From positions 1-64,000 of the forward strand of contig JAJTCO010000037.1 of NCBI GenBank assembly GCA_021323265.1: a stretch of 64,000 nt of DNA, given 5' to 3'. Below, one piece after another: positions 11,977-46,894 of the stretch. The notes under the pieces were generated by a model. It did no database searches and was not told the origin of the DNA. It was given only the letters and a program-made list of their open reading frames with translations. The position numbers and the translations under genes are program-made. Numbering within the stretch: the stretch's first letter is position 1; each line of letters starts with the position of its first letter. The stretch comes from Pseudoduganella sp. GTDB lineage: Bacteria > Pseudomonadota > Gammaproteobacteria > Burkholderiales > Burkholderiaceae_D.

Positions 11977-12053
11977 TTCGGGGTCAGCTCTGTCATTCGG
12001 ACAAAGGTTGCGCTTCGCGCAACTTTTGTCCGAATGACAGAGCTGACCCCGAA
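11977..12053. repeat. Inverted repeat, family A copy 2
   Basis: A 77-base palindrome with arms of about 37 bases differing at one position and a 3-base TTC centre. The arms match the copy at 71-149 and the ends of the element at 46695-46882. It directly follows the response regulator stop codon, where it could fold as a transcription-attenuating or mRNA-stabilising hairpin. Confidence 0.88.
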
Positions 12054-12194: not shown

Positions 12195-12437
12195 ATGAGC
12201 GACTTGATCAAACACATTACCGACGCCTCCTTCGACAGCGACGTGCTGAAGGCCGACCGCCCAGTGCTGGTCGACTTCTGGGCCGAGTGGTGCGGTCCTT
12301 GCAAGAGCATCGCCCCGATCCTGGAAGAAGTGGCCAAGGAATACGACGGCAAGCTGACCATCGCCAAGATGGACGTGGACAGCAACCAGGCCGTGCCGCT
12401 GATTGGCAGGGAAAGCGCCCAAAGACCTTTCCCTTAA
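12195..12437 (+). pseudogene. trxA: Thioredoxin, truncated at the 3' end
   Basis: The first 68 residues are a normal thioredoxin 1, with the redox motif WCGPC (Trp32, Cys33, Cys36) after VLVDFWAE. Homology stops after NQAVP; 12 unrelated residues and a stop follow. About 40 residues are lost, including the IPT cis-proline loop that faces the active site, the last two strands and the final helix, so the product should not fold as a thioredoxin. The junction is near 12398. AAGGA precedes the ATG. The gene stands in its usual place before rho. A real deletion or an assembly gap would look the same. Confidence 0.85.
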
Positions 12438-12498
12438 CTTAGATCCACGTAGTTCCCTCCCCTACCCTTACTTCCCGTCACGGGACACTCAAACAGCT

Positions 12499-13761
12499 AT
12501 GCACCTTTCTGAACTTAAGGCTATGCACGTTTCAGCTCTGCTGGAAATGGCCATCAGCCTCGATATTGACAATGCGGCCCGCCTGCGCAAGCAGGAACTG
12601 ATGTTCGCGATCCTGAAAAAGCGCGCCAAGGCCGGCGAACAGATTTTCGGCGACGGCGCCCTGGAAGTGCTGCCGGACGGCTTCGGCTTCCTGCGCTCGC
12701 CCGACGCCTCCTACATGGCGTCCACCGACGACATTTACATTTCCCCGTCGCAGATCCGCCGCTTCAACCTGCACACCGGCGACTCGATCGAGGGCGAAGT
12801 GCGCACCCCGAAGGACGGCGAACGTTATTTCGCCCTGGTGAAGGTGGACAAGGTCAACGGCGAATCGCCGGAGGCGTCCAAGCACCGCATCCTGTTTGAG
12901 AACCTGACCCCGCTGCACCCGACCGTGCCGCTGCGCCTCGAGCGCGACATGGCCGGCACCGAGAACATCACCGGCCGCATCATCGACCTGGTGGCGCCGA
13001 TCGGCAAGGGCCAGCGCGGCCTGCTGGTGGCCTCGCCGAAGTCCGGCAAGTCGGTGATGCTGCAGCATATCGCGCACGCCATCACCACCAACCACCCGGA
13101 CGTGACCCTGATCGTGCTACTGATCGACGAACGTCCGGAAGAAGTGACCGAGATGCAGCGCTCCGTGCGCGGCGAAGTGGTGGCGTCGACCTTCGACGAA
13201 CCGGCCACGCGCCACGTGCAGGTGGCCGAGATGGTGCTGGAAAAAGCCAAGCGCCTGGTCGAGATGAAGAAAGACGTGGTGATCCTGCTGGACTCGATCA
13301 CCCGCCTGGCGCGCGCCTACAACACCGTGATCCCGGCCTCCGGCAAGGTGCTGACCGGTGGTGTGGACGCCAACGCCCTGCAGCGTCCGAAGCGCTTCTT
13401 CGGCGCCGCGCGTAACGTGGAAGAAGGCGGTTCGCTGACCATCGTCGCCACCGCCCTGATCGAAACCGGTTCGCGCATGGACGACGTGATCTACGAGGAA
13501 TTCAAGGGCACCGGCAACATGGAAGTGCACCTGGAGCGCCGCCTGGCCGAAAAGCGCGTCTATCCGTCGATCAACCTGAACAAGTCCGGCACCCGCCGCG
13601 AAGAGCTGCTGATCAAGCCGGACCAGCTGCAGAAGATCTGGATCCTGCGCAAGCTGCTGTACTCGATGGACGAGATCGAAGCGATGGAGTTCATCCTCGA
13701 CAAGATGCGCGCCACCAAGAACAACGGCGAGTTCTTCGAGATGATGCGCCGCGGCGGCTAA
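12499..13761 (+). CDS. rho: Transcription termination factor Rho
   Basis: A complete 420-residue Rho. The N-terminal helical cap ([18 protein letters not shown]) is followed by the RNA-binding cold-shock fold with DGFGFLR (residues 60-66). Next come the ATPase with Walker A SPKSGKS near residue 180, the Walker B region [16 protein letters not shown], and the Q/R loops around [21 protein letters not shown]. Rho is a hexameric RNA helicase that ends untranslated transcripts. The ATG at 12499 is the family start. Its neighbours trxA and rpmE are both damaged while rho itself shows no defect. Confidence 0.98.
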
Positions 13762-13768
13762 AAAAAAC

Positions 13769-13837
13769 GGGGACGTACCCCATTGATTGTCAGCCACCGC
13801 CAAAGTGGGGACGTCCCGAGAAATGGGGTACGTCCCC
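13769..13837. repeat. Inverted repeat, family B copy 1, terminator-like
   Basis: GGGGACGTACCCCAT (13769-13783) pairs exactly with ATGGGGTACGTCCCC (13823-13837), with a 39-base loop that holds a third partial copy GGGACGTCCC. A run of A precedes and a run of T follows, so it can act as a terminator in both directions. It begins right after the rho stop codon. Confidence 0.8.
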
Positions 13838-13846
13838 ATTTTTTTT

Positions 13847-13855
13847 TGCTATAAT
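13847..13855 (+). promoter_or_regulatory. Extended -10 promoter before rpmE
   Basis: TGCTATAAT (TATAAT at 13850-13855) is a perfect -10 with the TGn extension. The -35 position falls inside the family B repeat arm and does not match TTGACA. Either the extended -10 suffices or the repeat replaced the old -35. Confidence 0.6.
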
Positions 13856-13954: not shown

Positions 13955-14121
13955 ATGAAAGCTGATACCCATCCAGATTACCGCGAAGTCCTGTTCCACG
14001 ACGTGTCCTGCACCCATTCTTCACCGGCCAGCACAAGATCGTCGACACCGCCGGTCGCGTGGAAAAGTTCCGCCAGAAGTTCGGCAAGGTCGGTTCCAAG
14101 ACTTCCGTTGCCAACGCCTAA
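13955..14121 (+). pseudogene. rpmE: Ribosomal protein L31, internal deletion with frameshift
   Basis: The ATG opens [19 protein letters not shown], the L31 N-terminus. After TGC at 14009-14011 the sequence jumps directly to the L31 C-terminal half, read in another frame: [19 protein letters not shown] through [11 protein letters not shown] and the stop at 14119-14121. About 30-35 codons of the middle, normally FKFVTRST and following, are missing, and the number lost is not a multiple of three. The gene should not make L31. The usual rho-rpmE order and a terminator at 14138 are retained. A second L31 gene elsewhere, or an assembly error, would resolve the viability problem. Confidence 0.85.
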
Positions 14122-18868: not shown

Positions 18869-19264
18869 TTAGCGCCGTGCCACCACGCGTACGTTGGTTT
18901 CGGTCATGGCGACCGCCATGGGCAGGCGTTCATAATTGCTGATCACTACATCGTGACCCTGTTCGCGGAATTCCACGCGCGTGCCGGCCGCCGTCACGAA
19001 GACATTGGAGGCGACAGGGAACAGCTGGACCTTGTCCTCCCCGTGCAGGCGCGCCCAGTAGCGGCGCCCCGACTGCGTGAACCGGATATACTTGTCGTTG
19101 CTCAGGGCATAGTTGTGGGCGAAGTCATCGAACTCGCCGCCGTACAGCTTGTAGGTCCCGCCGGGGGCCTTGATCTGGATGGTAGGATCGTCCGGGCCTG
19201 CAGCCAGCGCGCTGCCGCCCATCAACAGTGCAGCCACGGCACTCAACATCATCAGCTTTTTCAT
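18869..19264 (-). CDS. Small exported protein of unknown function
   Basis: A 131-residue protein with a clear signal peptide (MKKLMMLSAVAALLMGG then SALA at the cleavage site). The mature part is about 105 residues of mixed strand character, with TIQIKAPGGTYKLYGGEFDDFAHNY cut short here, and no family I recognise. Of two adjacent ATGs, the second (19264) has GGAG 6 bases away and is preferred. It is convergent with the AAA protease gene. The periplasm is its likely location; I cannot assign a role. Confidence 0.75.
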   Translation of the reverse strand: MKKLMMLSAVAALLMGGSALAAGPDDPTIQIKAPGGTYKLYGGEFDDFAHNYALSNDKYIRFTQSGRRYWARLHGEDKVQLFPVASNVFVTAAGTRVEFREQGHDVVISNYERLPMAVAMTETNVRVVARR

Positions 19265-31580: not shown

Positions 31581-33768
<2,188 letters not shown>

Positions 33769-34090
33769 GCTGTGCTGCCCCTTCTCTTGTGCTGTCCCGA
33801 AAGTGTCCGATTCTAGCAGACGAAAAGAATACGCAAACCTAGGTATTTTCACGAATGCCGAATTTTCATCGGTTATCGCGCCAGGATGCCACCACTCATT
33901 GCTCCATGGAAACGCAATTTTCTTCTACCACACTCTGTCGCCGCGATGACAATGCTGACTTGCGGCACGAAACCATAAAATCTTGTTGCGTCAAACCGCA
34001 AATAGTTGGAATATTTGGAACTAGCAACTTTACTTCTGGCATTTTCCTGCATAGACTGGGCTTACTGGCCCTTTACGGAAGGAATCAACC
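33769..34090. other. Spacer between maeB and the small ORF
   Basis: About 320 bases that are clearly lower in G+C than the surroundings and have no coding frame. On the minus strand TTGCGT and TAGAAT (near 33835 and 33815), with 15 bases between, could form a weak maeB promoter, and AGAAGGGG before 33768 is its ribosome site. The right half is AT-rich and should carry the promoter of the rightward genes. Confidence 0.5.
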
Positions 34091-46683: not shown

Positions 46684-46735
46684 TGACTTCAGAATTCGGG
46701 GTCAGCTCTGTCATTCGGACATAAAATCCGGTTCT

Positions 46736-46749
46736 TTGAGCGAGATCAA
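46736..46749. promoter_or_regulatory. FNR/Anr-like site 1
   Basis: TTGAGCGAGATCAA matches the TTGAT-N4-ATCAA consensus at nine of ten positions, inside the family A element and upstream of the arsR operator. Confidence 0.45.
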
Positions 46750-46827
46750 TACGCCATGTCGATTTTTGGGCGTTACCGCCTGCCCCGGACAGGGCAGCAT
46801 TCCAATACACATAATTGCGCCAGGTCG

Positions 46828-46841
46828 TTGAGGCAGGTCAA
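46828..46841. promoter_or_regulatory. FNR/Anr-like site 2
   Basis: TTGAGGCAGGTCAA keeps both TTGA and TCAA half-site cores at the standard spacing, 92 bases from the first site. Confidence 0.4.
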
Positions 46842-46894
46842 CGTTTGGGATTTGCTGTCCGAATGACAGAGCTGACCCCGAACTTATTTGTGCT

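Follow-up and report, generated by a model that had tools for sequence, protein, structure and literature searches.

Within the window, as we call the whole 64,000-nucleotide stretch of the Pseudoduganella sp. draft analyzed here (contig JAJTCO010000037.1), the genes trxA, rho, and rpmE follow one another on the forward strand, and a malic enzyme gene, which we take to be maeB-like, lies on the reverse strand (Table 1). Between the joins in trxA and rpmE, rho is a single open reading frame; its start codon is assumed from the usual Rho N terminus.

Table 1. Positions of the genes, gene pieces, and joins discussed in the text (window positions unless a draft contig is given)
Feature	Position	Strand	Basis
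trxA, 5' piece; remaining gene, stop, and part of the spacer missing (156-bp gap at 12398/12399)	12195..12398	+	Congener alignment; TrxA profile
rho, uninterrupted between the trxA and rpmE joins (start codon 12499 assumed)	12499..13761	+	ORF 12403-13761
rpmE (type B L31), 5' piece, codons 1-19, encoding 19 L31 residues	13955..14011	+	Comparison with G002 and G008
Join in rpmE; 103 bp of the congeners' gene missing, frame altered	14010..14011	+	Congener alignment
rpmE, 3' piece in a different frame; 36 codons of the L31 C terminus ending at 14118, stop at 14119-14121	14011..14121	+	PF01197 match; codon comparison
Malic enzyme gene, 128-bp frame-breaking gap at ~33493-33494	31584..33852	-	Alignment with G002 and G008
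Cytochrome-c-like gene, 101-bp gap	Draft contig C90, ~19107-19120		Comparison with G002 and G008
Gene of 2902 codons in G002, 37-bp gap	Draft contig C131, ~32412-32418		Comparison with G002
Presumed pmbA-like gene, 4-bp gap	Draft contig C131, ~41271		Congener comparison

Structure of the shortened rpmE gene

The rpmE reading from 13955 to 14121 comprises 167 bp, compared with 270 bp in G002 and G008, the two nearest congeners, which were used for base-by-base comparison. Both pieces stand directly behind rho, the position of the L31 gene in these two genomes. The difference is a single clean gap of 103 bp after codon 19, equal to 34 codons plus one base and hence frameshifting, and in the alignments with both congeners the join at about 14010-14011 is ambiguous by 2 bp. 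A first-pass annotation of this DNA had described an L31 gene with an internal deletion and a change of frame, in which the first 19 and last 36 residues are L31, 30 to 35 codons are missing, and the pieces join at 14009-14013; it had also proposed that related trxA-rho-rpmE loci be compared, and that comparison, carried out codon by codon, bears out its description in each of these points.

At the DNA level, the two pieces are 93 to 96% identical to rpmE of G002 and G008, with 96% for the 5' piece and 94% for the 3' piece in the case of G008. The Pfam L31 profile PF01197 is matched here over positions 41 to 65 alone (40.7 bits, above the cut-off of 27 bits), and an 82-amino-acid open reading frame in the shifted frame scores weakly against NF002462 (25.4 bits; family cut-off of 86), so that no full-length match in a single frame and above the family cut-off was found for the short gene with either profile. 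Because both pieces are so similar to the congeners' gene, and because the L31 profile is matched in part here and in full in the congeners, the gap is not a product of chance.

Over the 37 codons of the 3' piece, five synonymous differences and one nonsynonymous difference to G002 were counted, and four and two, respectively, to G008; the 19 codons of the 5' piece show synonymous/nonsynonymous counts of 1/2 to G002 and 0/2 to G008, which are too few to weigh. With synonymous changes predominating in the 3' piece, little decay appears to have followed the break. The decay expected in the remnants of a genuine pseudogene was seen neither in this piece nor in the malic enzyme gene, a picture that a very recent deletion would also present.

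L31 in related genomes

An L31 profile match was found once in each of 74/74 genomes of the genus; in 73 of them it extends over positions 1 to 65, and only in the genome under study is it confined to positions 41 to 65. The first-pass annotation had held that relatives sharing exactly this short form would speak against a defect, and the profile search found the short form in none of the 73 other genus genomes. In a smaller profile set, 40 of 41 genomes gave an L31 match, full-length and single in 24/24 congeners, and the sole miss was a genome from a different family that is 68% complete. Among the best 80 of 555 L31 loci, all 80 match over residues 1-87 or 1-88. The exact 33-base sequence across the rpmE join had no match in a database of genome contigs, from which the organism's own genome and very near genomes may have been left out.

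The L31 protein of G008 is assigned to type B by NF002462 (127.7 bits), which we take to mean the zinc-independent form. The gene studied here thus shares its position behind rho and both of its protein ends with the type B L31 gene of Duganella, Massilia, and Pseudoduganella, but differs from it in that 103 bp of the middle are missing here and the frame is altered.

Gaps in other genes of the window and the draft

The first-pass annotation had also drawn attention to a nearby gap in trxA with an intact rho in between, and the alignments agree: a gap of 156 bp relative to both congeners lies 1.6 kb upstream of the rpmE join. Its length is a multiple of three, yet the stop codon is removed, and the thioredoxin TrxA profile is matched no further than position 66 of 109. 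The missing trxA stretch was not recovered elsewhere in the draft, where the best of the candidates scored (40 of 68) had an E value of 0.19. The malic enzyme region is split into open reading frames 31581-33407 and 33187-33852, with 97 to 98% amino acid identity on either side of the break. A chimera of two strains around rho was considered and left no sign: the trxA and rpmE pieces have 93 to 94% identity to G002 and G008, and the rho stretch has 94 to 95%.

Gaps were surveyed in a sample of 548,753 of the 4,678,854 draft bases, on 20 of 149 contigs; these are free of N, except for contig C110, which is all N, and no runs of N occur at the joins. Genes from 286,864 bases of G002 and 271,406 bases of G008 were compared with this sample, gene-breaking gaps of at least 30 bp were counted, and the same script applied to G002 and G008 in both directions served as the control, in regions that hold a different gene set from that of the draft comparison. 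Compared with G002, 4/189 genes of the draft carry such gaps (rpmE, 103 bp; malic enzyme, 128 bp; the C90 gene, 101 bp; the C131 gene, 37 bp), and compared with G008, 3/176 do (the first three, with the same lengths). None were found in the controls (0/131 for G002 against G008 and 0/133 for G008 against G002). Break rows with a net change below 30 bp were left uncounted (5/9 for the draft against G002, 5/8 against G008, and 9/9 and 5/5 in the controls), and trxA, whose gap extends beyond the stop and was not flagged by the script, lies outside these counts.

Similar breaks are therefore present in unrelated genes of the draft and absent between its relatives, as expected of an artefact, although the events are few and the one-sided Fisher tests give P values of 0.12 (4/189 versus 0/131) and 0.18 (3/176 versus 0/133) when taken singly. 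Without rpmE, which was the reason for looking, the comparison with G002 gives a P value of 0.20. Pooling the controls lowers the value to 0.03 for 4/189, and to 0.01 with trxA added, but both figures overstate the case, because the two controls that were pooled lack independence and such breaks were the reason for choosing the window. Taken alone, the excess of gaps supports an artefact weakly.

The genes hit have no obvious common function. In C90, the part missing from the draft holds a CxxCH motif in G002, which we presume to carry its usual meaning in a cytochrome-c-like gene. This gene is poorly conserved, with 63 to 79% DNA identity in the flanks of the gap, so that a loss confined to very conserved stretches does not describe the set. 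Nor are gaps dense everywhere in the draft: on three other contigs, the pieces compared each gave one continuous alignment to G002, of 18.7, 15.2, and 12.1 kb. One further piece matches G002 in part of the first 4.6 kb, with few matches beyond, and does not match G008. Small indels were observed in two genes of the draft that we name, by assumption, ada-like and pmbA-like. On contig C15, a spacing 93 bases shorter than in G008 was considered as a gene break and set aside as a natural spacer difference, as G008 has a palindromic repeat at that place.

Origin of the gaps

The gaps measure 37, 101, 103, 128, and 156 bp. Microhomology at the three gaps of the window contig amounts to 0 to 2 bp (for the malic enzyme gene, the BLAST ends against G008 overlap by as many as 4 bases), and no deletion driven by repeats is visible. 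Two readings had been offered by the first-pass annotation, that the cell has another L31 copy or that the sequence is wrong at this place; the second is favored by the gaps in unrelated genes, and no copy in support of the first was found in the 83% complete draft. We consider that the short rpmE is most probably a sequence or assembly artefact of an incomplete draft (149 contigs; 83% complete). This explanation is favored because unrelated genes of the draft are cleanly interrupted and the two congeners, in the regions sampled, show no gap this large between them, few as the events are. It is the best fit to several unrelated genes that are cleanly cut and have decayed little, and whose breaks relatives do not share. 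From the gap, the intact single copies of relatives, and the similar gaps elsewhere in the draft, we infer that the loss did not take place in the cell.

In that case, a normal type B rpmE would most likely follow rho in the sequenced cells, as it does in the congeners searched, and the 103 bp may have been lost at contig building, consensus making, or library amplification. The same process could also account for the cuts in trxA, in the malic enzyme gene, and in genes on other contigs, with chimeric reads, gap closing, and polishing over uncovered stretches as candidate steps. A point against an artefact is that a k-mer assembler would not by itself produce joins that lack overlap; since those seen here have none and contain no N, reads that contain the join may exist.

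Spurious pseudogenes derived from assembly have been documented, and the abstract of that work likewise concerns frame breaks in conserved genes that are intact in near genomes and attributes them to assembly (PMC11017572). The breaks named in the abstract are frameshifts and internal stops, whereas the losses seen here are clean gaps of about 100 to 156 bp. Where near-universal genes appear to be lost from this draft, the loss should not be taken as biology without reads, and as clean gaps of 37 to 156 bp occur in at least five of the sampled genes, other findings of truncated genes from the draft need the same check.

It is conceivable, though improbable, that the deletions are real; homology-independent events would then have recently removed rpmE, the trxA end, and a functional malic enzyme from a population that now lives without L31. 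The joins are indeed clean and free of N, single comparisons give the excess of gaps in the draft weak statistical support, and E. coli lacking rpmE survives, although it grows less well and its in vitro translation is about 40% lower (PMC9966373). As the loss of L31 can be survived in E. coli, viability does not decide the matter. Such a history would require recent cuts in five unrelated genes, followed by little decay, and full-length L31 is missing from none of the 73 other congeners. Moreover, 4.68 Mb at 83% completeness imply a full genome of about 5.6 Mb, which is normal for the genus and does not suggest genome reduction. A real loss would make this an unusual organism, one that lacks L31 and has several freshly cut core genes. 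The more specific proposal that a natural population lost its only L31, along with the trxA end and a functional malic enzyme, in a recent burst of small homology-free deletions is improbable.

A truly broken rpmE whose protein is supplied by a second L31 gene in the unassembled part of the genome is very improbable. A copy could go unseen in a draft that is 83.3% complete and divided into 149 contigs; the profile search of this draft nevertheless returned a single L31 match, and the 73 other congeners have one match apiece. When the whole rpmE gene of a congener was used as a DNA query against the draft, nothing above chance was found for the missing middle: of the 37 matches, two are the rpmE pieces themselves, and the other 35, of 15 to 43 bases with E values from 0.013 to 7.05, were taken as chance. 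The search for a second, zinc-independent rpmE that the first-pass annotation had suggested therefore yielded none in the draft, and its premise of a paralogue has to be adjusted, as the intact gene of G008 is itself already of type B.

That the short gene yields a working, shortened L31 through a change of frame during translation is scarcely credible, for although both ends are L31-like and most codon changes in the 3' piece are synonymous, the 34 missing codons make the full protein impossible by frameshifting, the short form occurs in none of the 73 other congeners, and breaks of the same type are found in unrelated genes.

Repeats in the window

Palindromes with the ends GGGGTCAGCTCTG... 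were observed at window positions 11977-12053, 73-148, and 46693-46881, the last consisting of two arms around about 130 bases. The 24-mer GGGGTCAGCTCTGTCATTCGGACA has four copies in the 549-kb draft sample and none in the regions of G002 and G008 that were sampled. A relative of these palindromes lies in a spacer of G008 at a place where the draft has none, and the palindromes of the window look like REP-type repeats. A second palindrome (GGGGACGTACCCC) is located between rho and rpmE, at about 13762-13848, and similar stretches occur elsewhere in several congeners.
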